Shown piece after piece: positions 1 to 44,989 of a DNA stretch of 64,000 nucleotides (position 1 is the stretch's first letter; each line of letters starts with the position of its first letter). This DNA is from Streptomyces sp. NBC_00239 (GTDB taxonomy: Bacteria; Actinomycetota; Actinomycetes; Streptomycetales; Streptomycetaceae). The position numbers and the translations under genes are program-made. The DNA lies in NCBI RefSeq assembly GCF_036194065.1, contig NZ_CP108097.1, positions 62,001 to 126,000 of the forward strand, given 5' to 3'. The notes below the pieces were generated by a model that saw only the letters and a list, made by a program, of their open reading frames with translations, was not told where the DNA came from and searched no databases.

Positions 1-351
1 CCACAGCCCGGCCATGTGCAGGCCCGCCGCCCGGACCATGGCCCGGGTCCGCTCGTGGCCGATGGTCAGGGCTTCGGGGAAGACGAAGTTGCCGTACGTG
101 TGGTCGCCGTGGAAGTGCGTGTTGACCACGGCGCGCGGCGGGCGGGGCGCCAGCCGCAGCGCCGCCCGGCGCAACTGCCGGGCACGGCTCTCGGTGGCGG
201 CGGTGTCGACGAGCGCGCTGTGGCCGCCGTCGGTGAGGATGCCGGCGTTGTTCAGGCACCAGCCGCCCTCGGGCTGGACGTACGCGTGGACGCCCTCGGC
301 CACCTCGATGACGGCGGTGTCTGCGGGCCGCCTGACGGTCGTGGCGTGCAC
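1..351 (-). CDS. Metallo-beta-lactamase-fold hydrolase, 3' end outside the window
   Basis: The first 117 codons are visible. The zinc-binding motif HFHGDH lies at residues 79-84 in the context NTHFHGDHTYGN, and an upstream strand ends in LVDTAAT, as is usual in metallo-beta-lactamase-fold enzymes. The family covers hydrolases of thioesters, lactones and beta-lactams and some oxidoreductases, so the substrate cannot be named from this fragment. I chose the GTG start at 351 because a good ribosome site (AAGAGGTG) lies just upstream. A set of 11-bp phased ATTCC repeats lies about 95-145 bp upstream, so the gene may be under the cluster SARP. It could be cluster tailoring or resistance, or simply the flanking genome. 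Confidence 0.8.
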   Translation of the reverse strand, partial: MHATTVRRPADTAVIEVAEGVHAYVQPEGGWCLNNAGILTDGGHSALVDTAATESRARQLRRAALRLAPRPPRAVVNTHFHGDHTYGNFVFPEALTIGHERTRAMVRAAGLHMAGLW

Positions 352-639: not shown

Positions 640-1461
640 TCAGGCGAGGGCGGGCTCCGGCAGGACCAGGCGGCGGGGTGCGGCGCGGCCCCACGGGAAG
701 CCGTGGTGCAGGTGGACGGCCGGCGGCCGCGCGTCGTCGACCTCGACCGCCACCGCCGCCAGCACCTCGGGTACCGGCTCGACCTCCAGGAAGCGCCAGC
801 GCGCCGCCGAGTCGTCGGCGGGCGGCCGGAAGGCGAGGACGCCCCGGTCCTCGGCGAGGGTGAACACGAACGAGTCGAAGGGCAGTCCCAGTCCCAGCCC
901 GCGGGCCTTGGAGTAGGCCTCCTTCAGCGTCCACAGCCGCAGGGCGCGCCGGTTGCGGGGCCGCCCGGGAGCGGCGCTGGCGATCCAGTCCTGCTCCTCG
1001 GGGGAGAACGTCGCGATGATGTTGTCCAGGCCGCGCTCGCCGCGGTCGAGCCGCTCGACGTCGACCCCGATGCGCAGGCCCCGGGAGACGCCCAGCAGGT
1101 TGTACGCGTTGGCGTGCGAGAGGTTGAAGTCCAGCGTGTCCGCGCCGCGCGGCAGGCCGCCGTCGGGCGTCTGCAGGAACGGCCGCCCGCGCGAGGAGCG
1201 CCAGATGATCGCCTCGGCCTCGGGGATGCCGGTCTCCAGGGCCAGCACCCGGCGCACCAGGGCGTGGGCGACGAGGTACTGGCGGCGGTCGCGTTCGAAG
1301 AGGAAGCGGCCGGCCACCTCCTGCTCGTTCTCGTCCAGCCAGTGCGAGGCCAGGGTGGCGGCGATGCCGGGCGCGAGGTCCTCGTTGGGGCAGAACCACA
1401 GGTTGACCGGGGCGGGTTCGTTCTCCCCCGGCCCGCCGTGGTCGAGAGACAGCACGCTCAT
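640..1461 (-). CDS. 4'-phosphopantetheinyl transferase, Sfp type
   Basis: This 273-residue protein would attach the phosphopantetheine arm of CoA to the serine of carrier domains (ACP and PCP), the priming step for every PKS and NRPS module in the cluster. The two family motifs are present: IGVDVE at about 131-136 (Mg-binding acids) and WTLKEAYSK at 177-185 (WxxKEAxxK). The length is typical of Sfp-type enzymes. Its ATG overlaps the stop of the pseudo-ketosynthase gene (ATGA), so the two are translationally coupled and the gene is last in the SARP/ACP/KS-like operon. Whether it primes the tandem ACP next door, the megasynthases, or both is inference. Confidence 0.95.
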   Translation of the reverse strand: MSVLSLDHGGPGENEPAPVNLWFCPNEDLAPGIAATLASHWLDENEQEVAGRFLFERDRRQYLVAHALVRRVLALETGIPEAEAIIWRSSRGRPFLQTPDGGLPRGADTLDFNLSHANAYNLLGVSRGLRIGVDVERLDRGERGLDNIIATFSPEEQDWIASAAPGRPRNRRALRLWTLKEAYSKARGLGLGLPFDSFVFTLAEDRGVLAFRPPADDSAARWRFLEVEPVPEVLAAVAVEVDDARPPAVHLHHGFPWGRAAPRRLVLPEPALA

Positions 1462-3437
1462 GCCGACCCCTCCTCGCCACCCAGCCACAGCGGGACGCGC
1501 AGGAACGCGGACGCGGGCAGCGGCACGGCCACGGAGGCAGCGCCCCGGGCCGGCTCCAGCGCGGTCCAGTCGATGTCGAGCCCGGACAGCCACAGGCCGC
1601 GGAGCTGGTCCAGGTGCCCGGCCCGCCAGAGCGCGGCGAGGTACCCGTCCGTCTCCGGTACGCCGCCCAGGTCCAGCGGGTCGGCGCCGCCGTCCCGCAG
1701 ATCGGCGCAGGGCGCGCCGTCCCGTACGAACCGCTCCAGGGCCCGTACGAGTTCGCCGGTGTCGGTGACGACGGCCGCGAAGCGGCAGTCCATGGCGGAC
1801 CGGCCGGTGCGCAGTGCGCGGGCGAGCGCCGGGAGCGGGGGCACCGGGCCCGGCCCGTCGAGCAGCTCGGCGAACCGGCCCGCGGTGGCGGCCAGATGGG
1901 CGGGGGTGGGGGCGGACAGCACGAACAGTTCGCGGGCGGCCTCGGGAGCGGCCTCGGGTACCGGGTCCGGGACCGGGTCGGCGCCGGGCAGGTACTCCTC
2001 CAGGACCACCTGGGCGTCCGCGCCGCCGGCGCCGCGCACGCCGACGCAGATCCGGCGGGGCGCGGCCGTCGCGTTCTCCCAGGGCTGCGCCTCGATGCGG
2101 CCCGGCTCCGGTGCCAGGATCCGGTGGCTCAGTTCGAGCACGGCCCGGGTCAGGGCCGCGGCGCCGGTGGCGGAGCCCGCGTCGCCGACGAGCGCGCGGA
2201 CGGATCCGGCGTCCTCGCGGACGGCGGCGGCCGACGCGTCCAGCCCGGCCGCGCGCAGCGCCTCGCGCAGCACACGCTCCGCGGGAGCCGCGGGCGCGGC
2301 AAGGTCTGCGCCGTGCCCGCCGTCCGTGCCGTGCACGGGGCAGGAGGCGTGCAGGGAGTCGGCGGCGCGCGCGGCGGCGCGGGCGCGCCCGCCGCCGGCC
2401 CGGGACCCGCGGCCGGGGCCGGCCGCCGAGGGGTCGGGGGCGGTGTGGCCGACCGCGCTGCCGCGGATGAGGCAGTGCACGGTGTCGCCGTCGGCGAGGG
2501 CCCGCGCCAGGGGCTTGAGGAGGAGCGCGCCGACCCCTTCGCCCGCGCCGGGGCGCCGGCTGGAGGGGTGCAGCAGCAGCCGGACGCCGCCGACGAGCGC
2601 GGCGGCGCACTCGCCGCGGTGCAGGGCGGCGACGGCCTGGTGCAGCGCGACGAGCACGGAGGACTCCGCAGTGTCGACCGACTGGCTCGGGCCGGTGAGG
2701 CCGAGCAGGGCGGAGAGCCGGTTGGGCAGGCTCCACCGGCCGCCGCCGGGCATCGGCCGGGGTTGTTCGCGCCGCCAGGTCCTGGCCGCGAGCAGCACGT
2801 AGTCGCCGGTCCCGGCGCCGGTGAACACGCCGACGCTGCGCGGGGTGCCGTCGCCCGCGGTCAGCGCGTCGAGGCGGCCGCCGGTGCAGCCGGCGTCCTC
2901 CAGGGCCTCCCACGCGGTCTCCAGGAACAGCCGCTCCTGGGGGTCGATCAGGGCTGCCTCGTCCGCGTCGATCCCGAAGAACTCCGGGTCGAAGTCCTGT
3001 ACGCGCTCCAGGTAGTGGCCCCGCTCGTCACCGGGGCGGCCGGCGGGCGGCTCGGCGGCGCTGTCGTGCCCGCCGCGGGCCAGCCGCCAGAAGGCGGCGA
3101 GGTCGGGTGCGCCCGGGTAGCGCCCGGCCATGCCGACCACCGCGATCGGCCCGGCGTCCGGCGCGGGGGCCGCGAGGGGGGTGGCGGGCGTGGCGGGTGC
3201 GGCGGCCGCGCCGGACGCGGAGTCCGCGCCGCGGCCGGCGGCCGGGCTGGCCGCGGCGGGGGACGGCTCGGCGCCGTCCGGCTCCGGCCAGGCCTCCGGC
3301 AGGCGGAAGACGACCGGCGCGGGCCCGGTGCCGGTGCCGGTGTCGGCCGCGGCGGCGTCGCCGGCCAGCAGCGCGGCCACCTGGGCCCGGTCCAGATGAC
3401 CGTTCTTGAACCGGGTCAGGACTTCCTTCTCGTCCAT
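1458..3437 (-). CDS. Ketosynthase-like protein lacking all catalytic residues
   Basis: The protein has 659 residues. Residues 1-28 form a short charged helical element (LTRFKNGHLDRAQVAALLAG) of the kind seen at PKS subunit ends, followed by a Pro/Ala linker. Residues 97-480 have a ketosynthase fold with recognisable landmarks: PIAVVGMAGRYPGA, DPQERLFLETAWEALEDAG and a GGV near 283. The nucleophile motif DTACSS reads DTAESS, with Glu258 in place of Cys. The EAHGTGT and KSNIGH histidine motifs are both missing. The region after about residue 490 resembles the linker that follows ketosynthases in trans-AT PKSs, ending in a DIDWTAL...PLPASAFLRVPLWLG block. It is coupled to the PPTase gene and lies 33 bp downstream of the tandem-ACP gene. 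Decarboxylase or scaffold functions are possible, but catalysis by the normal ketosynthase mechanism is not. Confidence 0.85.
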   Translation of the reverse strand: MDEKEVLTRFKNGHLDRAQVAALLAGDAAAADTGTGTGPAPVVFRLPEAWPEPDGAEPSPAAASPAAGRGADSASGAAAAPATPATPLAAPAPDAGPIAVVGMAGRYPGAPDLAAFWRLARGGHDSAAEPPAGRPGDERGHYLERVQDFDPEFFGIDADEAALIDPQERLFLETAWEALEDAGCTGGRLDALTAGDGTPRSVGVFTGAGTGDYVLLAARTWRREQPRPMPGGGRWSLPNRLSALLGLTGPSQSVDTAESSVLVALHQAVAALHRGECAAALVGGVRLLLHPSSRRPGAGEGVGALLLKPLARALADGDTVHCLIRGSAVGHTAPDPSAAGPGRGSRAGGGRARAAARAADSLHASCPVHGTDGGHGADLAAPAAPAERVLREALRAAGLDASAAAVREDAGSVRALVGDAGSATGAAALTRAVLELSHRILAPEPGRIEAQPWENATAAPRRICVGVRGAGGADAQVVLEEYLPGADPVPDPVPEAAPEAARELFVLSAPTPAHLAATAGRFAELLDGPGPVPPLPALARALRTGRSAMDCRFAAVVTDTGELVRALERFVRDGAPCADLRDGGADPLDLGGVPETDGYLAALWRAGHLDQLRGLWLSGLDIDWTALEPARGAASVAVPLPASAFLRVPLWLGGEEGSA

Positions 3438-3470
3438 CTGGACGCGCTCCTTCTCAGGGTGGAAACAGCT

Positions 3471-4352
3471 TCAGCCGCGTCGGGCGAGCAGCAGGAGCGC
3501 CTCGTCCACGGTGAGCCGGTCGTCGCGGATCGCGTCCAGCAGGACGTCGAGATCGCCGCCCGGGAGCGGACGTACGGCAGGTTCGTCGGCCGCGGGGGCG
3601 GCCTGGGGGGCGGCGGCCGCGGGGGCGGCGAGCGCCGGTCCGGTGGCCGGGCGGAGCGCCGGTGCCGTTGCCTGCGGGGCGGGGCCCGGGGCGGTGGCGC
3701 GGGCCGGGGCGAAGTCCTGCTCCGAGCCCGCCGTGCGCGCCGCGATGTAGGCGGCCATGGCGGCGAGGTTGGGGTGCTCGTACAGCAGCACCGACCGCTC
3801 CTGGAGGCCGAAGGCGCGGTTGACGACCGCGATGAACTCCGCGCCCACGATGGAGTCGACGCCCAGCACGTTGAACGCGGCGGTGGTGTTGATGTCCCAG
3901 GGGTCGCAGGACAGGATGCCCGCGAGCTGCTCGCGCAGCACCTCCGCGATGCGGGTCGCCGCGGCGGCCGCCGGCACCTGCCGGGCGGGGGCGGGCGGCT
4001 GCGGCCCGAGCCCGAGGCCCGCGCCCGACGCCGGGAAGGCGGCGGTGGGGGCGGCGGCCGGGGCCGGCGCCGCGGCGAGGGTGGGAACGGGGGCGGCGGC
4101 CGCGCTGCTCGCCGCCCGCGCGACCTCGCGCGCGAAGGACGACGGCGTCGGGAAGTCGTACAGGTCGGTCGCCAGCACCCGCAGCCCGTACCGGGCGTTG
4201 ACCACGGCCACGAACTCCACCACCAGCAGCGAGTCCAGCCCCATGGACTGGAAGGTCTGCTCGGGGTCGATCTTCTCCGGCTTGACCCGCAGGACGTCGC
4301 CGAGCACCCCGATGAGGTCGGTCAGTACGTCCGCAGGATGTTCATTCGTCAT
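3471..4352 (-). CDS. Tandem acyl carrier protein (ACP-ACP) with C-terminal docking element
   Basis: The protein has 293 residues and two carrier domains: residues 8-80 with GLDSLLVVEF (Ser41) and 134-206 with GVDSIVGAEF (Ser167), separated by Ala/Pro linkers. Both read like trans-AT-PKS ACPs (LYDFPTPSSFA, LLYEHPNLAAMA) rather than the ACPs of the large PKSs here. The last 26 residues (DLDVLLDAIRDDRLTVDEAL) match the pattern of C-terminal docking elements and resemble the N-terminus of the adjacent KS-like protein, so the two probably pair. I chose ATG 4352 because a GGAGGAG site precedes it by 7 nt; the in-frame TTG at 4367 has no such site. The acyl group carried is unknown. Confidence 0.9.
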   Translation of the reverse strand: MTNEHPADVLTDLIGVLGDVLRVKPEKIDPEQTFQSMGLDSLLVVEFVAVVNARYGLRVLATDLYDFPTPSSFAREVARAASSAAAAPVPTLAAAPAPAAAPTAAFPASGAGLGLGPQPPAPARQVPAAAAATRIAEVLREQLAGILSCDPWDINTTAAFNVLGVDSIVGAEFIAVVNRAFGLQERSVLLYEHPNLAAMAAYIAARTAGSEQDFAPARATAPGPAPQATAPALRPATGPALAAPAAAAPQAAPAADEPAVRPLPGGDLDVLLDAIRDDRLTVDEALLLLARRG

Positions 4353-4385: not shown

Positions 4386-5099
4386 TCACGCGGTGCTGCC
4401 CGAGAACACCGGACGGCACCGGCCGTCCGCGGGGTCGGGATACCGGGCGGCCCGCTCGCCCGCGAGGCGGGGCGCGGGACCGGTGCCCGGCGTCCCGACC
4501 CGGAAGTTCTTCGCCGCGCCCTCGGGCACCAGGCTCGGCAGCAGCAGCGACCACAGCCCGGACACCCGGCACTGCAGCTCGGCGGCCGGCATGCCCGTGG
4601 CGGCCAGCGCCTCGATGCCGCAGGACGCCGCGACGACCAGCGATTCGACGCTCTCCCAGCCGATCCCGTCGCGGAGTTCACCCGCGTCCCGGGCCTGGCG
4701 CAGCAGGCCGCACACCTCGGCGAGCCAGGTCCGGTGGAAGTCGGTGGCGAGCGCGGCGGAGCCCGTGCACTCCCTGGTGAGACGGAAACTGGCCGGGATC
4801 ACCGGCTCCTCGCGCAGGCCGATCGCGAGCCAGTGCGTCGTGTCGACCAGGGTCTGCAGCGGAGAGCGGCCGGAGGCGCGCAGGGCGTGCACCGATGCGT
4901 GCAGCAGCTCGCAGCCGCGCAGCCGGATCGCCTCCGCCAGTTCGTCCTTGGAGGAGAAGTGGAAGTACAGCGCCCCCTTCGTCACTCCCGCGCACGCGGC
5001 GATCTCGCTGAGCGTCGCGTTCGCGTAGCCGTTGCGGTGGAACATCTCGGCCCCCGCGTGCACCAGCTTCCTGCGGGTCCGCTCCGACCTGTCCTGCAT
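4386..5099 (-). CDS. TetR-family regulator, gamma-butyrolactone-receptor type
   Basis: This 237-residue protein has an N-terminal TetR helix-turn-helix. The stretch AEMFHRNGYANATLSEIA followed by AGVTKGALYFHFSSKDELA is diagnostic of the ScbR/ArpA receptor group. The C-terminal ligand domain keeps the family end WSLLLPSLVP, then has an extra tail of about 40 residues. Receptors of this family bind butyrolactone signals, and pseudo-receptors bind other small molecules, to release promoters of pathway activators. Start chosen at ATG 5099, after a GAGGAGG site. It lies 91 bp downstream of the SARP gene in the same direction, so it is probably co-transcribed and could feed back on it. I see no ARE-like box directly in front of it. 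Confidence 0.88.
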   Translation of the reverse strand: MQDRSERTRRKLVHAGAEMFHRNGYANATLSEIAACAGVTKGALYFHFSSKDELAEAIRLRGCELLHASVHALRASGRSPLQTLVDTTHWLAIGLREEPVIPASFRLTRECTGSAALATDFHRTWLAEVCGLLRQARDAGELRDGIGWESVESLVVAASCGIEALAATGMPAAELQCRVSGLWSLLLPSLVPEGAAKNFRVGTPGTGPAPRLAGERAARYPDPADGRCRPVFSGSTA

Positions 5100-5190: not shown

Positions 5191-6054
5191 TCAGGCCACG
5201 CGTACGAGTTGCTCACTGTTCGTCTCCGCCACGACCGGACTCTCGGGGCTGGCCATGAGGATCGAGCGCTGCAGCCGGCGCAGGGCGGCCGAGGGCTCGA
5301 GCCCGAGTTCGCGCACGAGGGTGGCGCGCAGCCGCTGGTAGACGTCGAGGGCCTCGCCGCGGCGGCCGGAGCGGTGCAGGGCCAGCATGAACTGGCCGTG
5401 CAGGTTCTCGTGGGTGCGGTACCGGCTGGCCAGTACGGTCAGTTCGGCGAGCAGCTCGCGGTGCCGGCCGAGCCGCAGATCCGCCTCGATGCGCTGGTCG
5501 AGCGCGCAGAGGCGGGTCTCTTCGAGCCGCCGGGTCTCCATGTCGAGCTGGATGCCGCCGTGCACGTCGGCGAAGGCCGGTCCGGACCACAGCGACAGCG
5601 CCTCGCGCAGCAGCCGGGCCGCGCCGGGGAAGTCACCGCCGTCCATGGCCCGGTAGCCCATGCCGGCAAGCCGGTCGAACTCGCGGACGTCGCTGGTGCC
5701 GCCGCCGCTGTTGAGCAGGTAGCCGCCGGGCAGCGTGACGAGCACGTCCTTGGCGGTGCGCCGCTCAGCCGCACCGGCCGCGCCCTCGGGGCACTCGCCG
5801 TCCTCGGCGGCCGCGCCCTGTTCCAGGGCGGTGGCGATGAGGGCCCGCAGCTGCAGCACGTAGGTCTGCAGCGTGGTGCGGGCACTGCGCGGCGGTGCGC
5901 CCGCCCACAGTTCCTCGATCAGCGCCGACACCGGGACCACCTGGTCGGCATGGAGCGCCAGGAGCGCCAGCACCTGTCGCGGCTTGGGGGCCGTCGGCGT
6001 GATGGAGACCCCGTGCTCCCGCACCGCCAGTGTGCCCAGTACTTCGATGTCCAC
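5191..6054 (-). CDS. SARP-family transcriptional activator
   Basis: This 287-residue protein is the likely pathway-specific activator. The N-terminus is the OmpR-like winged helix typical of SARPs (VLGTLAV, TPTAPKPRQVLALLALHADQVV, LIEELWAGAPPRSARTTLQTYVLQLR). Residues from about 125 form the bacterial transcriptional activation domain (FDRLAGMGYRAM, LREALSLWSGPAFADV, HENLHGQFMLALHRSGRRGEAL). The length matches small SARPs without ATPase domains. Start: GTG 6054, with GGGGAG six bases upstream. Its upstream region carries two 22-bp ARE-like boxes, which predicts repression by one of the two butyrolactone-receptor homologues nearby. A set of 11-bp phased repeats at 444-494 is a candidate target. 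Confidence 0.93.
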   Translation of the reverse strand: MDIEVLGTLAVREHGVSITPTAPKPRQVLALLALHADQVVPVSALIEELWAGAPPRSARTTLQTYVLQLRALIATALEQGAAAEDGECPEGAAGAAERRTAKDVLVTLPGGYLLNSGGGTSDVREFDRLAGMGYRAMDGGDFPGAARLLREALSLWSGPAFADVHGGIQLDMETRRLEETRLCALDQRIEADLRLGRHRELLAELTVLASRYRTHENLHGQFMLALHRSGRRGEALDVYQRLRATLVRELGLEPSAALRRLQRSILMASPESPVVAETNSEQLVRVA

Positions 6055-6092
6055 GCCATTCTCCCCTGTCCGTGGATGAGCCTCCGCCAGTA

Positions 6093-6114
6093 AAAAACAG
6101 GACCGGCGGTTTGT
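6093..6114. promoter_or_regulatory. ARE-like receptor box in front of the SARP gene
   Basis: On the minus strand the 22 bases read ACAAACCG CCGGTCC TGTTTTT. The ACAAACCG half-site and T-rich right arm are shared with boxes at 6263-6284 and 7014-7035. It sits 39-60 bp upstream of the SARP start codon, where a receptor would block the promoter. Confidence 0.6.
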
Positions 6115-6262
6115 CAATGTGAAACCGACCGTGTGTGCTGTTTGATTTCGAACCGCCTGAAGGACCCTCAAAGACCAGTCCCCACCTGCGTAGTTGCCAC
6201 CCTTGACGGAGGCCGGGGCGCCCGGCCTCTGACCTGCAGACCTTCCAGAGTGGGCCCGATCA

Positions 6263-6284
6263 ACAAACCGGCCGGTCTTTATTT
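6263..6284. promoter_or_regulatory. ARE-like receptor box overlapping the end of the second receptor gene
   Basis: The box reads ACAAACCGGCCGGTCTTTAT plus TT, an imperfect palindrome around CCGGCCGG. It overlaps the last codons of the TetR gene at 6279 and lies about 210 bp upstream of the SARP start. It shares the ACAAACCG half-site with two other boxes. Confidence 0.55.
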
Positions 6285-6935
6285 ACCCGCAGCCGACGCC
6301 GCGGCGTCGAGGTCGACGAGGCGGGGGCCCGCGGCGTCGAGGCCGGCGAGGCCGGCCGCCGGCACGACGGTCGGCAGCAGCAGCCGCCAGAACCGCGCGA
6401 CCGTCGCCGCCGAGAGCCAGACGGCGTCCCGGAACCCGAGCACCTCGAACCCCACGGTCGCGGCCACCACGGCGCTCTCCACGTCCCGCACCACCACGCC
6501 GGGGCGCAACTCGCCCGCCGCCGCGGCCCGTTCCAGCGTCCCGGCGACCCACATCCGCCAGCGGTCCCGCAGGCCGCCCGGGCGGGGGCGGGCCACGTCG
6601 CCGCTCAGCGCGAACCCGGCCCGCAGCACCACGTCGTCGAGCTGCGCGTCGGCGAGCTCGTGGGTGGCGTCGATCAGGCGTTGCAGATGGCCGCCCGCCC
6701 CGGCCGGCGGCGCGCCCTCCGTGACGGCCTTCAACCGGGCCAGCGCCGCCTCCTCGACGGCGTCCGCGAGGCCCGCCTTGGTGGCGAAGTGGAAGTGCAG
6801 CGCCCCGTTGCTCACCCCGGCCAGCGAACTGATCGAGACGAGCGACGCGGGGGAGAAGCCCTCGCGGTCGAAGACCTCGGCCGCGGACCGGATGAGGGCG
6901 TCACGCGTACGCGCCGCACGTTCCTGCTTCACCAT
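6279..6935 (-). CDS. TetR-family regulator, gamma-butyrolactone-receptor type
   Basis: This 218-residue protein is a second member of the butyrolactone-receptor group. The DNA-binding domain is at residues 1-50 (RTRDALIRSAAEVFDREGF, LAGVSNGALHFHFATKAGLAD). The ligand domain ends in FWRLLLPTVVPAAGLAGL. The length is close to that of true receptors such as ArpA and ScbR, without the extra tail of the homologue at 4386. Start: ATG 6935 (MVKQERAARTRDAL) with GGAG upstream. A perfect 7-4-7 inverted ARE-like box at 7014-7035 lies about 80 bp upstream, so autoregulation is likely. Two similar boxes follow the gene in front of the SARP, which makes this protein the best candidate for the SARP repressor. 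No butyrolactone synthase (AfsA type) is in the window. Confidence 0.9.
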   Translation of the reverse strand: MVKQERAARTRDALIRSAAEVFDREGFSPASLVSISSLAGVSNGALHFHFATKAGLADAVEEAALARLKAVTEGAPPAGAGGHLQRLIDATHELADAQLDDVVLRAGFALSGDVARPRPGGLRDRWRMWVAGTLERAAAAGELRPGVVVRDVESAVVAATVGFEVLGFRDAVWLSAATVARFWRLLLPTVVPAAGLAGLDAAGPRLVDLDAAASAAGK

Positions 6936-7013
6936 CTGCTGCTCCGTCGCTCCAGGGGGTCGCCCGCGTGCCGAAGGGCAGGCCGGAGTGCTCACCCGAA
7001 CCCAGAGTGTAAT

Positions 7014-7035
7014 ACAAACCGCCTGTGCGGTTTTA
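7014..7035. promoter_or_regulatory. ARE-like box in front of the receptor gene
   Basis: The box reads ACAAACCGCCTGTGCGGTTT plus TA. Inside it AAACCGC (7016-7022) and GCGGTTT (7027-7033) form a perfect 7-bp inverted repeat with a 4-bp spacer. It is the most symmetric of three related boxes and sits in the promoter region of the minus-strand receptor gene starting at 6935. It also lies 80 bp upstream of the divergent plus-strand hydrolase. Confidence 0.65.
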
Positions 7036-7076
7036 ACGACTTCGTTACCTTGGGGAACCGGCCGCCGCGGGTCCGT

Positions 7077-7107
7077 TTGACCTTGACCCAAGGTCAGGGT
7101 GGACGCT
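7077..7107 (+). promoter_or_regulatory. MerR-type promoter with operator and leaderless start
   Basis: The perfect inverted repeat TGACCTTG (7078-7085), ACC, CAAGGTCA (7089-7096) begins within a -35 hexamer TTGACC (7077-7082). A weak -10 (GACGCT, 7102-7107) follows at a 19-bp spacing. Over-long spacers with the operator between the two boxes are the hallmark of MerR-activated promoters. Transcription would begin near 7113, at the ATG of the hydrolase, giving a leaderless transcript. The regulator is likely the MerR protein at 7919. Confidence 0.6.
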
Positions 7108-7113
7108 GATTGC

Positions 7114-7914
7114 ATGACCACTTCGACTGTCCCGCCCAAGACCGGCATGCTCCCGGTCGACGACACGCAGCTGTTCCTCACCGACACCCGCGGCCCCGGC
7201 CGCCCCGTCGTCTACCTGAACGGCTGCTACGGCGACCGCCGGCCCTGGCTCCCGGTGATCTCCGAACTCGACAGCGGCTGGCGGCACATCACCTACGACG
7301 AGCGGGCCCGCGGCAGGTCGAAGCGGTCGGCCGACTACTCCTTCGACGCCTGCGTACGGGACATCGACGCGGTCCTGGCCGCGACCGGGGTGGACCGGCC
7401 GCTGCTCGTGGGCTGGTCGTACGGCGCGGCGATCGCGGCGCACTGGGCCGACCGGAACCCGGACCGCGTCCTGGGGGTGGTGGCCGTGGACGGTGCCATT
7501 CCGTACGGTCTGACCGGCGAGGCGGGACGCGAGCGGATCAGGCGCCTGTTCCGCCGGATGCGGTGGGCCCTGCCGCTGTTCCGCCCGTTCGGCATGGCCG
7601 CGCGGATGACCGCCGACCAGCACGCCGACATCAACATCGAGGCCAACGAGATCAACGCCGCCATCGAGCCGGTCCTCGACCGCGTGAACTACCCGCTGCG
7701 GTACGTCCTCGCCACGGGCGGCAGCCTCGGCGGGGGCAAGGAGGAGATGGAGCAGATGCGGGCCTCGCTCGACCCGGTGCTCGCCCGGAACCCGAACGTC
7801 AAGGTCAGCGCGAAGGTCCCGAGCAACCACTCCCACATCCTGCGCAAGGACTTCCGGGCGGTCGCCGCGGCCGTGCGCGAGACCGCGGCCGCGCACGACC
7901 GACGGGTCCGCTGA
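7114..7914 (+). CDS. Alpha/beta hydrolase
   Basis: The 266-residue protein has the alpha/beta hydrolase fold. The nucleophile elbow is GWSYGA with Ser102, the oxyanion region follows YLNGCYGDRRPW (about 34-45), and a candidate catalytic His lies in SNHSHIL near the C-terminus. An acid residue is expected near ATGGSLGGGKEE. Family members hydrolyse esters, lactones or epoxides, and the substrate here is not evident. I chose ATG 7114 rather than GTG 7099 because no ribosome site precedes either and the predicted start of transcription falls at 7113-7114. It forms an operon with the MerR gene, 4 bp apart, and is probably induced by whatever the MerR protein senses. It may be a cluster-edge detoxification gene. 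Confidence 0.88.
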   Translation: MTTSTVPPKTGMLPVDDTQLFLTDTRGPGRPVVYLNGCYGDRRPWLPVISELDSGWRHITYDERARGRSKRSADYSFDACVRDIDAVLAATGVDRPLLVGWSYGAAIAAHWADRNPDRVLGVVAVDGAIPYGLTGEAGRERIRRLFRRMRWALPLFRPFGMAARMTADQHADINIEANEINAAIEPVLDRVNYPLRYVLATGGSLGGGKEEMEQMRASLDPVLARNPNVKVSAKVPSNHSHILRKDFRAVAAAVRETAAAHDRRVR

Positions 7915-36023: not shown

Positions 36024-36259
36024 GCCGCGGCCCTCCCCTGCTCGATCAGCTCGGCGACCCGGGCCGGGGTCTGGGCCAGGTAGAAGTCGCGCACGGACAG
36101 CTGGACGCCGTAGTCCTGCGCCACCCGCTCGATGATCTTGATTCCGGTGAGCGAATTGCCGCCGAGCACGAAGAAGTCGTCCTCGACCCCGACCTTTCCG
36201 TCGGCGAGGAATTCCCCCCACAGCTCCGCGATGTCCTGCGCCAGCGACACAGATTCCAT
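36020..36259 (-). CDS. Free-standing peptidyl carrier protein
   Basis: The 79-residue protein is a single carrier domain with LGGNSLTGIKI and Ser36 as the phosphopantetheine site. DFYLAQTPARVAELIEQ forms the last helix. It would hold an amino acid as a thioester for the neighbouring P450, and the product would then be passed on by the Cys-type transferase. Start: ATG 36259 (MESVSLAQDI), preceded by AAAGGGA; there is no larger plausible frame. It is first in the PCP-P450-transferase-PKS transcription unit and faces the divergent flavin monooxygenase across about 390 bp of regulatory DNA. Confidence 0.9.
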   Translation of the reverse strand: MESVSLAQDIAELWGEFLADGKVGVEDDFFVLGGNSLTGIKIIERVAQDYGVQLSVRDFYLAQTPARVAELIEQGRAAA

Positions 36260-36368
36260 TGCCCGTCTTCCCTTTCTCCACCGACCGGGAGTGCCCGCTC
36301 GCGTCATTTCGGTCCTGCCTCCGGACCGTCCACCGCCGTTACGGCCACTGGGGGCCATGGGCCGCGCT

Positions 36369-36384
36369 GTCCCGCCGGCGAGAC
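36369..36384. promoter_or_regulatory. 16-bp palindrome copy, one mismatch
   Basis: GTCCCGCCGGCGAGAC differs by one base from the perfect palindrome found at 36521 and 15461. It lies 110-125 bp upstream of the free PCP start codon, followed on the plus strand by the AT-rich stretch AAAATCTCTG. Confidence 0.45.
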
Positions 36385-36520
36385 AAAATCTCTGAATGGC
36401 CGGACCGAGTCTCGCGTGAATTCGCGCCCGATCACACCGTGCCGGCGGTGTCCCGGTACTCCCCGGCCCGTGAGGTTGAGAGTGGACCAGGCGGCCGAAC
36501 CACGACGCTCCCCGAGGACC

Positions 36521-36536
36521 GTCCCGCCGGCGGGAC
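36521..36536. promoter_or_regulatory. 16-bp perfect palindrome, second copy
   Basis: GTCCCGCCGGCGGGAC is identical to the copy at 15461-15476, 21 kb away in the same cluster. It lies about 110 bp upstream of the flavin monooxygenase and 152 bp from the copy at 36369. Confidence 0.5.
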
Positions 36537-36645
36537 ACGGCAAGTTCGGCAGCGGCTTGCCCCGTCGGGAACCGGCGTTTATTGACCGGCTGATTCCCGT
36601 TCAGTGAACGTGAAGGTGATTCAACGACGTTAGAGGCGCAGTGGA

Positions 36646-38175
36646 ATGAGGGGGAACGACGTGGGACACAGCGACATCGATGCAGACGTGGTGATCGCGG
36701 GCGCCGGGCCGACAGGCCTGATGCTCGCCTGCGAGCTGCGTCTGGCGGGCGTCGACGTGGTGGTGGCCGAGCGGCTCCCGGAGCCGACGGGCGAATCGCG
36801 GGCCGGCGGAATCCACTCCCGCACCCTGGAGGTGCTCGACCAGCGCGGGATCGTGGAGCGATTCCTCGAGATCGGCGAACTCCAGCCGGTCGGCCATTTC
36901 TCCGCCCTCTTTCTAGACTTCGACGAGTCGGAATCGAGGCACCCCTTCCCGCTGATGATCCTTCAGTCCGCCATCGAGCGGCTGCTGGAGGAGCGCGCCA
37001 CCGAGCTCGGCGTACGGATCCGCCGGGCGTCCGAGGTGACGGGCGTCAGCCAGGACGAGACCGGCGTGAGCGTCGAGCTGAACGCGGGCACGCCGGACGC
37101 GGCGACGCTGCGCGCCCGCTACCTCGTGGGCTGCGACGGCGGGCGCAGCGCGGTGCGCAAGCTGGCCGGCATCGACTTCCCCGGCACGGCGGCGACGATG
37201 ACCTCGCTGATCGGCGACGTCGAGCTCCCCGACATGACCGAGGACTACATCTGGGTGCGGCGCGTCGAGGGCGGCGACTACTCGGCGGTCGCCTTCGAGC
37301 CGGGCTGGTACCGGGTGATCACCTCCGAGTACGACCTCGTGGACCCCGACGAGGTCACGACGTTCGAGCAGCTCCGGGACGCGCTGATCCGGCTGGCGGG
37401 CACGGACTTCGGGATGACCAACCCGCGGTGGATCTCCCGGTTCAACGACACCGCGCGGCAGGCCGCCCAGTACCGGCAGGGCCGGGTGCTGCTCGCGGGC
37501 GACGCCGCGCACATCCACTTCCCGGCCGGCGGGCAGGGACTGAACATGGGCGTGCAGGACGCCGTCAACCTCGGCTGGAAGCTCGCCTCGGTGGTGCGCG
37601 GCACGGCCCCGGAGAGCCTCCTGGACACCTACCACGCAGAGCGCCACCCCATCGGGGAGCGCGTGCTGCACAACACCCGGGCGCAGGCGGCGCTGGCCCG
37701 CCCCGGCGCCCAGACGGACGCGCTGCGCGACGTCTTCAGCGAGCTGATGGTGTTCGACGACGTCAACACGAAGCTGCGGCACATGCTGAACGCCCTGGAC
37801 ATCCGCTACCCGGCCGAGGGCGGCCACGAGCTGGCGGGCCGCCGGGTCTTCGACGCCGACCTCAAGTCGTCCGACGGCGCCGAGTGCGTCTACGAGCTGC
37901 TCCACGGCGGCCGCCCCGTCCTGCTCGACCTGGGCGCCGGCGGCGAGCTGGCGGCGCTGGCCCGGGGCTGGGCCGGCCGCGTCGACTTCGTCGAGGCCCG
38001 CAGCGAGGACGAGGTCTGGCCCGTCCCGGGCGTCGGCGAGATCCCGGCGCCCGCCGCGGTCCTGATCCGCCCCGACGGCCACGCCGCCTGGGCGGTCTCC
38101 CACGGCGACGCGCCCGACACGGCGGCGCTGCGGACCGCGCTCACCACCTGGTTCGGCCCGGCCCTGGAGGGCTGA
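36646..38175 (+). CDS. Class A FAD-dependent monooxygenase (aromatic-hydroxylase type)
   Basis: The protein has 509 residues. The FAD-binding GAGPTGLMLACEL begins at about residue 17, the DG motif region GCDGGRSAVRK is at about 161-171, and the GD motif is LLAGDAAHIHFPAGGQG, typical of the PgaE/RdmE group. These enzymes hydroxylate electron-rich carbons such as phenols, and some relatives act on enolised 1,3-dicarbonyls. No aromatic substrate is evident in this pathway. The enolisable 2-methyl-3-oxo acyl chain made by the last PKS could therefore be the substrate, giving the alpha-hydroxyl found in azinothricin-type acyl groups (inference). It is the only plus-strand gene in the core. ATG 36646 is used here; GTG 36661 has a stronger site (GAGGGGG) and is a real alternative. 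Confidence 0.92.
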   Translation: MRGNDVGHSDIDADVVIAGAGPTGLMLACELRLAGVDVVVAERLPEPTGESRAGGIHSRTLEVLDQRGIVERFLEIGELQPVGHFSALFLDFDESESRHPFPLMILQSAIERLLEERATELGVRIRRASEVTGVSQDETGVSVELNAGTPDAATLRARYLVGCDGGRSAVRKLAGIDFPGTAATMTSLIGDVELPDMTEDYIWVRRVEGGDYSAVAFEPGWYRVITSEYDLVDPDEVTTFEQLRDALIRLAGTDFGMTNPRWISRFNDTARQAAQYRQGRVLLAGDAAHIHFPAGGQGLNMGVQDAVNLGWKLASVVRGTAPESLLDTYHAERHPIGERVLHNTRAQAALARPGAQTDALRDVFSELMVFDDVNTKLRHMLNALDIRYPAEGGHELAGRRVFDADLKSSDGAECVYELLHGGRPVLLDLGAGGELAALARGWAGRVDFVEARSEDEVWPVPGVGEIPAPAAVLIRPDGHAAWAVSHGDAPDTAALRTALTTWFGPALEG

Positions 38176-38177
38176 GG

Positions 38178-38244
38178 CCCCGTACGACGAAGGCGGCCGC
38201 CACGACCTGCTGAGGGTCGTGGCGGCCGCCTTCGTCGTACGGGG
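38178..38244. terminator. Perfect 30-bp-stem bidirectional terminator
   Basis: The arms at 38178-38207 and 38215-38244 are exact reverse complements over 30 bases with a 7-nt loop (TGCTGAG). It begins 3 bp after the monooxygenase stop and separates it from the convergent exporter operon. Confidence 0.85.
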
Positions 38245-38329
38245 TGGACGCGGTGCGCGCGCAGCCGGGCGGCACGGGCGGGGACGGGCGGCCGGGGCGG
38301 ATCGGGACCGCGGCGGGCGGACGCACGGA

Positions 38330-38360
38330 AGCCGCCTCGGCGACGTGCGCCGAGGCGGCT
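38330..38360 (-). terminator. Hairpin terminator after the exporter operon
   Basis: AGCCGCCTCGGCG (38330-38342) and CGCCGAGGCGGCT (38348-38360) form a perfect 13-bp stem with a 5-nt loop, 42 bp beyond the stop of the ABC permease gene on the minus strand. Confidence 0.7.
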
Positions 38361-38401
38361 CCGGGGGAAGGACCGACCGGCCGGTCCGGGCCGGCCGGGG
38401 G

Positions 38402-39163
38402 TCAGGCCCGCTTCTTGAACGTGGAGACCGCCCACACGTAGCCGACCACGGCGATCCCGACGCACCAGGCGACGGCCGCGACCGCGTCGCCGCCGGACGG
38501 GTTGCCCGCCAGCAGTCCGCGCAGCGTCTCGATGATCGGGGTGAAGGGCTGGTACTCCGCGAACTGCCGCACGCCGGCCCCCATCGACTCCGCGGGGACG
38601 AACGCGCTGCTCAGGAACGGCAGCATGATCAGCGGCACGGCGCCCATGCCGGCGGACTCCGCGGACTTGGAGGCCAGGCCCATGGCGACGGTGAGCCAGC
38701 CGGTGGCGAAGCTGAGGAGCACGATGACGCCGATCACGCCGAGCCAGTCGGTGGCGCTCGCGGCCGGGTCGAAGCCCATCGCGAAGGCCACCGCGATGAT
38801 GGCGGCGCAGCCCGCCAGGGCGCGGACCGTGGTGATGACGACGTGCCCGGTCAGCATGGCGCCGCGGGAGACGTCCATGACCTTGAACCGGTTGATGATG
38901 CCCTTGGTCATGTCGGAGTTCACGGCCGTCGCGGTGGCGCTCAGCCCGTAGCTGATGGCCATCACGAGCAGGCCGGGCGTCACGTAGTTGATGTACGTGT
39001 CGCCGACGCTGAACGCGCCGCCGAACACCTTGACGAACATCAGCATGATCACGATGGGCACCAGGACCGCGTTGAACATCGTGATGGGGTTGCGCACGTT
39101 GTGCTTGAGGTTGCGGCGCAGCATGATCGCCGAATCGGCCAACGGCGTCGAGACAGTGCTCAC
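38402..39163 (-). CDS. ABC-2 type transporter permease, DrrB-like
   Basis: This 253-residue membrane protein has about six hydrophobic segments, including MFNAVLVPIVIMLMFVKVF, YVTPGLLVMAISYGLSATA, AGCAAIIAVAFAMGF, WLGVIGVIVLLSFATGWL and a final AVAWCVGIAVVGYVWAV. The conserved LPFLSSAFVPAESM...AEYQPFTPIIETLR block of drug-exporter permeases is present. With the ATPase whose stop overlaps its GTG start (GTGA), it forms a DrrAB-type exporter, probably for the cluster product and self-protection. It is the last gene of the NRPS-thioesterase-ABC transcription unit and is followed by hairpin terminators. Start chosen for the overlap and the GGAGG lying upstream inside the ATPase gene. Confidence 0.94.
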   Translation of the reverse strand: MSTVSTPLADSAIMLRRNLKHNVRNPITMFNAVLVPIVIMLMFVKVFGGAFSVGDTYINYVTPGLLVMAISYGLSATATAVNSDMTKGIINRFKVMDVSRGAMLTGHVVITTVRALAGCAAIIAVAFAMGFDPAASATDWLGVIGVIVLLSFATGWLTVAMGLASKSAESAGMGAVPLIMLPFLSSAFVPAESMGAGVRQFAEYQPFTPIIETLRGLLAGNPSGGDAVAAVAWCVGIAVVGYVWAVSTFKKRA

Positions 39164-40113
39164 TGTGCCATCGCCTCCTTGCTCTTGTGCTCGGTGCCCG
39201 TCTTTTCGGTGAGGGCGAGGAAGACGTCGTCGAGGTCCGGCCGGTTGACCGAGAACTCCATGGCGTCGATCGAGTGCGCGTCGAGCCGGTCCAGCAGGAC
39301 CCGCAGCGACCGCGTCTCGCCGTCGCTCGGCACCCGCAGGGTCAGCTCCTCGTCGTCGCGCGTGGACTCGCCCAGGACCCGGGCCGCGGCGTCGAGTTCG
39401 TAGTGGTCGGCGAAGCGGAACCGGACGTGGGTGCCGGGGATCTGGCGCTTGAGCTCGTCGGAGGTGCCCTGGGCGACCAGGCGGCCCCCGTTGAGCACCG
39501 CGATCTGGTCGGCGAGCTGGTCGGCCTCCTCGAGGTACTGGGTGGTGAGGAAGATGGTGGTGCCCTCGGCGACCAGCTCGCGGACGATGCCCCACATGGT
39601 GCGCCGGCTGCGCGGGTCGAGACCCGTCGTCGGCTCGTCCAGGAAGATGATCTCCGGGTTGCCGACCAGGGTCATCGCCAGGTCCAGCTTGCGGCGCATG
39701 CCGCCGGAGTACGTCGCCGACAGCTTGTCCGCCGACTCCACCAGGTCGAAACGCTCCAGCAGTCGCGTCACCACCTGGTCGCCGGAGCGCACCCGCTTCA
39801 GGTCCGCCATCAGCTGCAGGTTCTCCCGGCCCGACAACAGCTCGTCCACCGCGGCGAACTGACCGGTCACGCCGATGGACGCGCGCGCCTGCTGCGTCGC
39901 GGTCGCCACGTCGTGCCCGGCGACCGTCACCGTGCCGGCGTCCGCTCTCAGCAGCGTCGTCAGGACGTTGACCGTCGTCGTCTTGCCGGCCCCGTTCGGG
40001 CCGAGCAGGGAGAAGATCGATCCCGCGGCGACTTCGAAGTCGATGCCGTCGAGCACGACCTTGTCGCCGTATGCCTTGCGCAGCCCTGAAACTGCAATCG
40101 CTGAACTTCTCAT
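39160..40113 (-). CDS. ABC transporter ATP-binding protein, DrrA-like
   Basis: The 317-residue ATPase has Walker A GPNGAGKTT, Q-loop TGQFAAVDELLSGRENL, signature YSGGMRRKLDLA, Walker B IIFLDEPTTGLDPRS and the switch region LTTQYLEEADQLAD, then a C-terminal domain typical of daunorubicin-resistance-type ATPases. It powers the permease encoded immediately downstream, with a 4-bp overlap. It lies 62 bp after the type II thioesterase gene, so export is probably co-expressed with the NRPS genes. The substrate is inferred to be the cyclic peptide product. Confidence 0.95.
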   Translation of the reverse strand: MRSSAIAVSGLRKAYGDKVVLDGIDFEVAAGSIFSLLGPNGAGKTTTVNVLTTLLRADAGTVTVAGHDVATATQQARASIGVTGQFAAVDELLSGRENLQLMADLKRVRSGDQVVTRLLERFDLVESADKLSATYSGGMRRKLDLAMTLVGNPEIIFLDEPTTGLDPRSRRTMWGIVRELVAEGTTIFLTTQYLEEADQLADQIAVLNGGRLVAQGTSDELKRQIPGTHVRFRFADHYELDAAARVLGESTRDDEELTLRVPSDGETRSLRVLLDRLDAHSIDAMEFSVNRPDLDDVFLALTEKTGTEHKSKEAMAQ

Positions 40114-40175
40114 GCCTCCACTTTCCTCTCCGGGCCTGTCATCGACCTGTCACAGCACTGACGCGAGCGCCTGTC

Positions 40176-40895
40176 CTAGCGGCCGCGGGCGGACTCCGCT
40201 TCGATCACGTCGAGTACCTCGCGGCCGCTGTCGACCAGGTACATGTGGTCGCCGGGGAACTCCACGTAGCTGAAGCCGGCCGTGGTCGCGGCCTGCCACT
40301 GGTTGCCCTCCTCGGCCGTGACCAGGCCGTCGGAGTCGCCGCGCAGCGAGCAGATCGGCACCGTCACCGGGTCGTCGATGCTCGGCACGTAGTTCTCGTG
40401 CATCTCGCAGTCGGCCTGGAGCACGGGGAGGATGAGCTCGCGCATCTCCGGGTGGTCGAGGGCCTCGTGCCGGAAGCCCGCGAACTCCTCGACCCGGGCG
40501 AGGAACTCGTCGTCCTGGAGCCCGGTCGCCCGGCGCTCGCGCTGGGTCCAGGGACCCGGCGAACCGCTGACGAACAGCCGCTCGACCTGCACGCCGCGCG
40601 CGGTGAGCAGGTGCACCAGCTCGTACGCGAGCACCGCGCCCAGGCTGTGCCCGAACAGCACGACCCGGGCCCCTTCGCCGAGGTCCGCGACGATCTCGTC
40701 GATCGAGCCCTTGGCCGCCTCGACGACGTTCCGGTACGGCTCCTCCATGAACTTCCGCTCCCGGCCGGGGAGCTCGACGGAGGTCACCCGCCACCGGCCG
40801 GCGGACAGCTCCCGCCACGGGTGGAAGAACGAAGGACCCGCTCCCGCGAACGGCACGCACAGCAGCGTGGTCTGTTCCTCGTGTCCCGCAGACAT
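40176..40895 (-). CDS. Type II thioesterase (Ser nucleophile)
   Basis: This 239-residue protein is a classical editing thioesterase: LLCVPFAGAGPSFFHPW at the N-terminus, nucleophile elbow FGHSLGA with Ser84, an acid in SLRGDSDGLV and the His in FPGDHMYLV. Such enzymes clear wrongly loaded or stalled acyl and aminoacyl groups from carrier domains. It follows the Thr-NRPS gene by 79 bp and precedes the exporter genes. Comparison with the Cys-type homologue at 34039 shows two divergent copies with probably different jobs. ATG 40895 was chosen; in-frame TTG/GTG codons lie within 30 bp upstream, so the exact start is uncertain. Confidence 0.93.
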   Translation of the reverse strand: MSAGHEEQTTLLCVPFAGAGPSFFHPWRELSAGRWRVTSVELPGRERKFMEEPYRNVVEAAKGSIDEIVADLGEGARVVLFGHSLGAVLAYELVHLLTARGVQVERLFVSGSPGPWTQRERRATGLQDDEFLARVEEFAGFRHEALDHPEMRELILPVLQADCEMHENYVPSIDDPVTVPICSLRGDSDGLVTAEEGNQWQAATTAGFSYVEFPGDHMYLVDSGREVLDVIEAESARGR

Positions 40896-40974
40896 GCCGG
40901 ACCCTGTCACGCCGACCAACCCCAATCATCCATTTCGATCGTTTGTCGAGTTCCGTAAAAAAGTCGGCCGGCGG

Positions 40975-43900: not shown

Positions 43901-44868
43901 TCGTAGGCGGTCAGCGACTTGTCCCGCACCTGCGCGAGCAGGCTGGTGAAGGTGGGGTTGCCGGTGAGGTCGGCGCGCAGCACCTGGGTGTTGACGAAGA
44001 AGCCGATCAGGTCGTTCAGCGCCTCGTCGGTGCGGCCGGCGATGGGGCTGCCGATCGTGACGTCGTCACCGCCGCCGAGCTTGCGCAGCAGCACCGATAT
44101 CGCGGCCTGGAGGACCATGGCCATGGTCGCGCCGCGCTCCTCGGCCAGCTTCTGCAGGCCGGCCGCGACCTCGGGCGCCGCCACGAGGTCGATCCTGCCG
44201 CCGTGCGAGTTCGCCTCGGCGGGCCGCGGGCGGTCCAGCGGCAGGTTCAGGGGCTGCGGGATGCCGGACAGCTCCTTGCGCCAGTACTCGACCTGGGACG
44301 CGGCGATGCTGCCCGGTTCGTCCGGGTCGCCGAGGACCTCGCGCTGCCACTGCGCGTACTCCTTGTACTGGACGGGCAGCGGCTCCCAGGCGGGGGCCGC
44401 GCCCTCCAGGCGCGCGGTGTAGGCCTGGACCAGGTCCCGCATCATCGGCGCGGCGGAGCTGCCGTCCGAGGCGATGTGGTGGACGACCATGACCAGGACG
44501 TGCTCCTCGGGGGCCAGGCGCAGCAGGCTGGCCCGGAAGGGGAGTTCGTTCTCCAGGTCGAAGTGGTGCGCGACGGCGTCCTCGATCGCGCGGGTCTTGT
44601 CCTCGGGCGCCACGTCGACGAGCTGCACCTGGGGCGACACGTCCGCCGGCGGCAGGATCCGCGAGTAGGGCTCACCGTTGTCATCCGTCGCGTACGTGGT
44701 CCGCAGGATCTCGTGCCGCTCGGCCACGTCGCCGATCGAGGCGACGAGGGCGTCCCGGTCGAGTGATCCGGTCAGCCGGAAGGCCGCCGAGATGTTGTAG
44801 GTCGCCGCCCCGCCTTCGAGCTGGTGCAGAAGCCACATACGACGTTGTGCGAATGACAGCGGAATCAT
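40975..44868 (-). CDS. NRPS module C-A(Thr)-PCP-TE
   Basis: The protein has 1297 residues. The C domain starts directly at the N-terminus ([25 protein letters not shown]). The A domain is complete ([25 protein letters not shown]). Its specificity residues read by eye are D-F-W-N-V-G-M-V-H-K, one conservative change from the classical threonine code DFWNIGMVHK. The PCP has [11 protein letters not shown]. The TE has [19 protein letters not shown] (Ser about 1149) and a His pair near 1276. A TE normally ends an assembly line, yet the NRPS encoded just upstream also ends in a TE about three-quarters identical to this one. ATG 44868 has AAAGGA upstream; the gene is separated from its neighbour by 121 bp with a perfect hairpin. 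Confidence 0.95.
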
Positions 44869-44895
44869 TTCAGTCCTTTGCGTGCATCTGGCGCT

Positions 44896-44933
44896 GACCG
44901 GGGACGGGGGGCGAGCGGCCACCGTCCCCGGTC
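44896..44933 (-). terminator. Perfect 12-bp hairpin between the two TE-ended NRPS genes
   Basis: GACCGGGGACGG (44896-44907) and CCGTCCCCGGTC (44922-44933) are exact reverse complements with a 14-nt loop. It lies between the stop of the C-A-PCP-TE gene at 44990 and the start of the Thr module at 44868. Because it stands inside an otherwise continuous gene series, partial termination that sets the ratio of the two proteins is possible. Confidence 0.55.
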
Positions 44934-44989
44934 GCCTCGCCGGTGGTTTCAGTGGTTCGTTCAACCGGCTGCGGCGGGTCGACGTCCGG

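Follow-up and report, generated by a model that had tools for sequence, protein, structure and literature searches.

A stand-alone acyl carrier protein and silent ketosynthase of Streptomyces, very probably derived from a virginiamycin M-type subunit junction

Introduction

The chain length factor (KS-beta) and KSQ share the ketosynthase (KS) fold and have the catalytic cysteine replaced, often by glutamine. KSQ keeps its histidine residues for decarboxylation, and the chain length factor pairs with KS-alpha. The condensation-inactive KS of beta-methylation cassettes goes by the name VirB. A KS of this last kind makes acetyl-acyl carrier protein (ACP) from malonyl-ACP (PMC10006238). Here we describe a KS-like protein with another pattern of losses, the silent KS, which is encoded beside a tandem ACP and a 4'-phosphopantetheinyl transferase (PPTase) in a 64,000-nucleotide stretch of Streptomyces sp. 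NBC_00239 (the window; positions 62001-126000 of the 303,920-base contig NZ_CP108097.1, called C3 below).

The virginiamycin M pathway, whose content and order are described in PMC10006238, supplies the structural reference points. PDB entries 2MF4 and 8A7Z represent ACP5a of VirA, and 4CA3 and 8AHQ its ACP5b (PMC10006238); 2N5D is a tethered complex of the VirA C-terminal and VirFG N-terminal docking domains (PMC9113145). A PPTase, a 'beta-ketoacyl synthase with LINKS motif' and an ACP are listed for plasmid pSB1 of S. bambergiensis (PMC12402327, Table 3). A preliminary description of the window had presented the unit as one of undescribed function, and the literature searched likewise yielded no account of what the silent KS/ACP family does.

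The silent ketosynthase

The core of the cassette consists of the following features.

640..1461, minus strand: Sfp-type PPTase, 273 aa, overlapping the KS gene by 4 bp
1458..3437, minus strand: silent ketosynthase (KS-like protein), 659 aa, open reading frame confirmed at these coordinates
3360..3437, minus strand: N-terminal docking domain of the silent KS, residues 1-26, MDEKEVLTRFKNGHLDRAQVAALLAG, assigned from the family profile against 2N5D
2664..2666, minus strand: codon of Glu258, at the catalytic Cys site of the KS
2181..2183, minus strand: codon of Asp419, at the second catalytic His site (NIGH changed to VGDA)
3471..4352, minus strand: tandem ACP, 293 aa, open reading frame confirmed at these coordinates
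3474..3554, minus strand: C-terminal docking domain of the ACP protein, DLDVLLDAIRDDRLTVDEALLLLARRG, also from the family profile against 2N5D

The window KS reads DTAESS (E258) where live KSs have DTACSS and VGDAG (D419) where they have NIGH, and the HGTGT motif was not found in it. It thus lacks the Cys-His-His triad of condensation, and it also departs from KSQ decarboxylases, which have Gln for Cys and keep both histidines; the window copy has Glu and neither His. The protein almost certainly has no condensation activity.

A protein search returned 281 KS-like matches, nearly all of the named ones from Streptomyces. Residues were counted in 120 listed matches, a set that includes the window protein and is weighted to close relatives. 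Position 258 is Glu in 83 of them, Gln in 18, Trp in eight, Asp in four, Gly in three, Ala in three and a gap in one, so that Cys occurs in none of the 119 readable proteins; HGTGT is found in none of the 120, and the second His (position 419) is kept in ten. The same losses recur in 30 family members read from fetched loci. The border of the family is marked by a fall in profile score from 454 to 396, below which the rows shown carry Cys, except L079 with Ser, and have His motifs that are ordinary or partly changed. The nearest intact relatives are the second KS of VirFG-like subunits, which belong to another kind of cluster. Because no listed relative has Cys or HGTGT, the silent KS is regarded as a family of its own, and the proposal that it is a decayed copy of a live KS was rejected.

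An AlphaFold2 model of the KS built from 55 sequences (mean pLDDT 82.5) has two head helices, at residues 3-11 and 17-24, followed by a low-confidence linker (about 27-94) and the KS fold. The overall predicted architecture is that of docking helices, linker, trans-acyltransferase (trans-AT)-type KS fold and a flanking linker domain resembling those of RhiE and CurL. Its best PDB matches are trans-AT KSs, with 4zdn first, and sequence, predicted fold and the tree described below all place the protein among trans-AT KSs.

A different possibility is that the KS is still active through a new reaction centre made up of Glu258 and Asp419, which might for instance hydrolyse or decarboxylate an ACP-bound acyl group. 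Position 258 is Glu, Gln or Asp in 105 and position 419 is Asp or Glu in 89 of the 119 readable listed proteins, and the motif region is as conserved as the N-terminal half of the KS (0.81 and 0.77). However, other members have Trp, Gly or Ala at 258 and His, Arg, Ser, Ala and others at 419, two less well aligned members have Pro or Val, and the listed proteins are skewed toward close relatives. We regard a new reaction centre as very improbable.

Docking domains and carrier proteins

Family profiles were built from 12 ACP tails and 13 KS heads, the C- and N-termini at which the two proteins would meet. The ACP-tail profile matches residues 14-41 of 2N5D (E=5.5e-12; next match 0.66) and the KS-head profile residues 50-75 of the same entry (E=1.4e-15; next match 0.38), while head and tail profiles align weakly to each other (probability 65). 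The head motif is present in 109 of 120 listed KS proteins and the tail motif in 117 of 120 listed ACP proteins.

The interface residues named in PMC9113145 were counted in 36 fetched pairs, the window pair not being among them; the Arg at head position 17 was equated with R66 of that paper, one off the other head numbers. L20, L57, R66 and L74 are kept in all 36 pairs. K61 is Lys or Arg and F60 is Phe or Tyr in every pair, K54 is Lys or Arg in 35, and E31 is Asp in 34. The core and salt-bridge residues of a four-helix docking bundle are thereby retained over the 36 pairs, with D17 and A53 as exceptions, and both termini are predicted to form a helix-turn-helix of about 25 residues. An 89-residue fragment reading through tail and head, folded without homologues, gave four helices at a modest pLDDT of 67; its best fold match is again 2N5D (E 0.032, probability 1.00, TM 0.63). 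By homology, a putative ACP/KS docking pair of the VirA/VirFG type is strongly supported.

These results agree with much of the preliminary description, which had noted Glu258 in place of Cys with loss of both His motifs, had judged the protein to be neither a normal KS nor a KSQ, and had seen matching docking-like helices at the KS N-terminus and ACP C-terminus. Its view that both proteins look like trans-AT polyketide synthase (PKS) parts is upheld by sequence, predicted fold and tree, and the intact-triad homologues that it named as a sign of mere decay do not occur among the listed family members.

The ACP protein contains two PP-binding stretches, whose serines 41 and 167 are invariant in 21 aligned rows (window included). 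A protein search gave 130 ACP matches, again with nearly all of the named ones from Streptomyces, and 112 of the 120 listed have two GxDS motifs. The best stretch with 2mf4 (VirA ACP5a) is ACP1 and that with 4ca3 (VirA ACP5b) is ACP2, the same order as in VirA, and the Trp-flag site is Phe, as in VirA ACP5a/5b. The tandem is accordingly of the ACP5a/ACP5b type that belongs to beta-branching modules.

Origin in a streptogramin A-type assembly line

The KS tree comprises 138 rows (29 silent, 73 close live, 27 other live and nine cis-AT KSs), which were chosen by locus name; the silent KS rows of L012 and L031 lie outside it, and the tree is a quick search with SH-aLRT support only and a midpoint root. 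All 29 silent KSs form one clade (SH-aLRT 100), which is nested in a clade of 38 (100) together with nine live KSs from loci L016-L022, L030 and L044.

Clusters with these live KSs carry a tandem ACP, a KS, HMG synthase, ECH and a KS-KR-ACP-KS-ACP subunit, the full reading being that of L018. There, a tandem ACP ending in LDALLAAVRDNRLTVEQALQLL is followed by a KS, HMG synthase and ECH, and then by a subunit that starts with MEAMDAKEILTRVKTGTLDAASAAALL (KS-KR-ACP-KS-ACP), a nonribosomal peptide synthetase (NRPS) subunit that includes a nitroreductase-type domain, and finally a PPTase. Ten of 11 live loci, all but L027, have matches to HMG synthase and ECH; the ninth sister row comes from L021, a contig of 7.9 kb that shows neither HMG synthase/ECH nor PPTase. 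The window PPTase is 58-63% identical to those of four live source loci (L016, L018, L026 and L030). Because gene content and order fit the virginiamycin M pathway, the source loci can provisionally be called streptogramin-A type.

No HMG synthase or ECH match was found at 1e-10 in 37 family stretches or in contig C3, and beta-branching by the ACP/KS pair was rejected on this ground.

The silent KS lies directly behind its docking head, though the KSs to which it is related come second in the source subunit, and the simplest inference is that an internal deletion joined the head to the second KS. In origin and docking type, the pair very probably represents an ACP/KS subunit junction of a virginiamycin M-type trans-AT PKS, as far as sequence comparison can tell.

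Conservation and gene neighbourhood

Neighbours were counted over 37 loci and the window contig, using those with enough flank for each comparison. The ACP gene lies upstream of the silent KS in all 37 loci. A PPTase lies downstream in 34 of 36 loci. After the PPTase, no neighbours recur as steadily as the regulators: a SARP match lies within 4.5 kb upstream (<=4.5 kb) in 31 of 34 loci and an ScbR-type match in 27 of 34, counts that refer to a family member and not to a fixed orthologue, since SARP and ScbR paralogues cross-match.

In the window, the remaining features of the block are as follows.

4386..5099 (start taken as 5099), minus strand: ScbR-family autoregulator-binding repressor (NF041196, 194.4 bits, cut-off 150)
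5191..6171, minus strand: SARP-family activator, start codon uncertain (BTAD, 148.2 bits)
6279..7187, minus strand: TetR/ScbR-type repressor, last gene of the cassette block, whose relatives precede SARP at other loci
1..324, minus strand: MBL-fold hydrolase, partial in the window, 90% identical to the hydrolase after the cassette in L001
6133..7073, strand not applicable: synteny-break zone against plasmid NZ_CP107984.1

Along the minus strand the order is therefore TetR/ScbR-type repressor, SARP, ScbR-family repressor, tandem ACP, KS, PPTase and the partial hydrolase. With the repressor start at 5099, the gaps from SARP to ScbR, ACP and KS are 91, 33 and 33 bp. From this spacing alone, which is as expected of an operon, we infer that the cassette genes are co-transcribed.

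The constancy of the regulators keeps alive a signalling reading, in which primed ACPs on the silent KS serve a butyrolactone/SARP circuit, either by donating acyl groups to a signal synthase of the ScbA or AvrD type or by sensing the acyl or CoA state. Besides the upstream SARP and ScbR-type genes, ScbA lies within 12 kb in 20 of 31 loci, an AvrD family gene lies 3 kb upstream of the cassette in L003, a locus without a SARP or ScbR match, and the regulators recur while the clusters vary. However, SARP and ScbR genes commonly serve as regulators of pathways and would be found linked to the pair even if it had no direct part in the circuit; ScbA is absent in 11 of 31 loci, and the AvrD gene of L003 has an ACP of its own next to it. 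Such a regulatory device is possible and, on this evidence, unlikely.

The AvrD-family gene of L003 (L003:15288-17632) is accompanied by KASIII and ACP genes, a set that we take to recall the methylenomycin mmyD/C/A set.

The clusters near the cassette include type II PKS, AvrD with PKS-NRPS, piperazate-type NRPS, type I PKS and mycofactocin genes. The cassette is located mostly on plasmids of Streptomyces; of 13 plasmid records examined, 11 are linear and two circular, and L008 lies on an 8.7-Mb scaffold. Fourteen plasmid records have a KS-alpha with 90% identity or more to the L001 protein, and nine an N-hydroxylase with 80% or more to the L005 protein; all of them also carry the silent KS, and several of the records are near-copies. 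On these grounds the pair could be an ordinary pathway part, feeding either a type II PKS or the window's azinothricin-like PKS-NRPS. Yet the cassette is kept on the plasmids of L006, L105, L107, L108 and L109, where neither of the two lies within the 18-20 kb read and which are not among the rows shown for KS-alpha or N-hydroxylase matches.

The position of the cassette in the window bears on the same question. Base-by-base comparison was made with one related plasmid, NZ_CP107984.1. The cassette (C3 59.2-68.1 kb) matches 193.7-202.5 kb of that plasmid and the PKS-NRPS (C3 69.1-145.2 kb) matches 93.3-165.9 kb, except for one 2.4-kb piece, found at C3 54.8-57.2 kb; the type II PKS (C3 149-167.5 kb) matches 175-193.7 kb in inverted orientation. 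To the left of the break zone the window matches 193.7-202.5 kb, and to the right it matches from 93.3 kb. Because the cassette adjoins the type II PKS on NZ_CP107984.1 and also lies ahead of KS-alpha in L002, L007-L011 and others, its adjacency to the azinothricin-like PKS-NRPS in the window is, judged by block order, a rearrangement.

The preliminary description had placed the pair inside a cis-AT cluster. By position this holds, at the cluster edge, and the place is not shared with NZ_CP107984.1, in which the block order differs; a conserved position as a member of an azinothricin-type cluster was thus not found in this comparison. A dedicated azinothricin-type role, also considered there, is not borne out as stated, since the unit stands beside varied clusters and the adjacency is rearranged, and an azinothricin-specific role was set aside after the context survey and block comparison. 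The available description of the cluster content for diperamycin, of the azinothricin family, also names no such pair. A looser tie to the azinothricin-type pathway may exist, as the nine N-hydroxylase plasmid records all carry the silent KS. Taken together, an ordinary pathway part seems rather unlikely.

Four loci (L005, L013, L037 and L038) carry a piperazate-kind N-hydroxylase, an SRPBCC cyclase and NTF2-like genes; no KS-alpha or chain length factor match was seen in the stretches read, as if the type II PKS had been lost. Outside the window, C3 has two type II PKS clusters (149175-163840 and 36173-41078), one 93% identical in KS-alpha to the cluster after the cassette on other plasmids and the other 71%. 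It also has three ScbA-like genes with ScbR-like neighbours (44528-45415, 170077-170955 and 293835-294779). Both ends of C3 are palindrome-rich and telomere-like by eye, with no match to the primase genes of related plasmids.

Two further protein types occur near the cassette. Shortened discrete AT-like proteins are found at L001:40679-41578, L109:22689-23375, L015 ~14858 and L023 ~11757; the serine of GHSxG is Ala in L001 and Gly in L015, L023 and L109, and no motif was found in L002. A family of stand-alone condensation (C)-domain proteins with 40-46% mutual identity is encoded at L006:22597-25956, L107:12422-14491, L109:23559-25697, L001:38172-40313 and C3 ~161441. The second His of HHxxxDG is kept in eight of 14 homologues and lost in six. 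A wholesale dead-enzyme system around the cassette was considered and dropped, given that the C-domain family keeps HH in those eight homologues.

Selection and proposed function

The ratio of nonsynonymous to synonymous substitution rates (dN/dS) was estimated by the Nei-Gojobori method on stop-to-stop frames, which include some upstream extension; the estimates are crude for high-GC genes, and a few SARP pairs picked the wrong paralogue. The KS ratio is below 1 in all 20 pairs. The data show that KS and ACP are under constraint, which is not strong. Pairwise distances correlate at 0.79 for KS and ACP and 0.75 for KS and PPTase (r 0.64-0.79 among KS, ACP and PPTase, and 0.48-0.66 with SARP), as expected of genes inherited together.

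In the mechanism that we propose, the PPTase would prime both ACPs and the docking pair would hold them against the silent KS, which would do no chemistry and act as a platform or cap. The complex would then store the ACP-bound acyl group or offer it to a partner enzyme whose gene lies near. That the pair is a domesticated assembly-line piece, whose silent KS platform stores or presents an ACP-bound acyl group, is a reading for which we see an even chance. The presenting platform, one of the guesses of the preliminary description, is our best functional guess and a tentative one. A step specific to one product is argued against because the neighbouring clusters are diverse.

Several observations weigh against this picture of a domesticated junction. 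A long stem (0.63) leads to the silent clade, in a quick tree that has SH-aLRT support and no bootstrap, and the PPTase likeness is one of identity in four of 11 source loci. In the docking domains, the acid at D17 (Asp or Glu) is kept in 24 of 36 tails, N26 is Asp, Glu or Asn in 29 of 36, and A53 is Ala in one of 36 heads and Glu in 26, with the window of the Glu type. A single ACP serine motif is present in six of 36 loci, and two of 36 loci (L011 and L110) lack the PPTase. No partner gene is universal: ScbA is found in 20 of 31 loci, a C-domain protein in seven of 14 and KS-alpha in 14 of 35, a tally that includes the window contig on account of a copy with 71% identity at a distance of 22 kb. 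Finally, KS dN/dS is moderate (0.22-0.68), and the ACP range (0.24-0.98) reaches high values.

The selection data also touch the possibility that the pair is a relic without present function, hitch-hiking with a useful PPTase and regulators. Moderate KS ratios, ACP ratios of up to 0.98 in single pairs, and nearby C-domain and AT proteins that partly lack catalytic residues would suit a relic. On the other hand, all 31 family KS frames, window included, are open across the match (28 are whole and three are cut by contig ends), although broken KS copies would have escaped a search that relies on open frames. Docking heads, tails and ACP serines are conserved, and L011 and L110 keep ACP and KS without the PPTase, though perhaps through one event. 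A relic is, in our estimation, quite improbable.

Beyond the storing or presenting platform, a bolder proposal is that of a pseudo-PKS outside product assembly, a streptogramin-type subunit junction with catalysis removed and docking kept, acting as a plasmid-borne acyl-ACP sensor or donor in a butyrolactone/SARP control island. We attach little probability to it. If true, such an island would command whichever biosynthetic clusters the plasmid has picked up.

Whatever its role, the silent KS represents a pseudoenzyme family of traceable origin, which would have kept the docking helices and carriers of an assembly-line junction and lost the chemistry. By this example, a docking interface may be open to domestication in the form of a small module, and the pair offers PKS engineers a natural minimal ACP-ACP/KS docking pair. 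On many plasmids rich in clusters it adjoins the regulatory genes, which makes its role amenable to testing.

Comparison with known systems

The silent KS family resembles the chain length factor and KSQ in the replacement of its Cys, by Glu or Gln. Unlike them, the window KS lacks both His residues and has no live KS in its operon. Like the condensation-inactive KS of beta-methylation cassettes, it would be a non-condensing KS that works with ACPs, whereas neither an HMG synthase nor an ECH gene was detected in its neighbourhood.

The pSB1 trio is the same three-gene set, and its neighbour on that linear plasmid is a type I PKS cluster. In the available part of that paper the genes appear as table rows, and function, a dead active site or a docking pair are not discussed there.

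The VirA/VirFG junction (2N5D) differs in that the silent KS family consists of small stand-alone proteins that have lost the catalytic triad, with no HMG synthase/ECH match in the family stretches. In the VirFG-like subunit of L018, a first KS, a KR and an ACP stand between the docking head and the second KS; the silent KS has none of these and comes straight after its head. The two systems share the same two ACP types in the same order and the same docking-domain type. The silent KS and the second KS of VirFG-like subunits also share a clade, and a similar PPTase occurs in four of 11 source loci. The pair thus combines a docking type, an ACP type and a KS clade that were already known, and the trio itself is in print as the table rows of pSB1.

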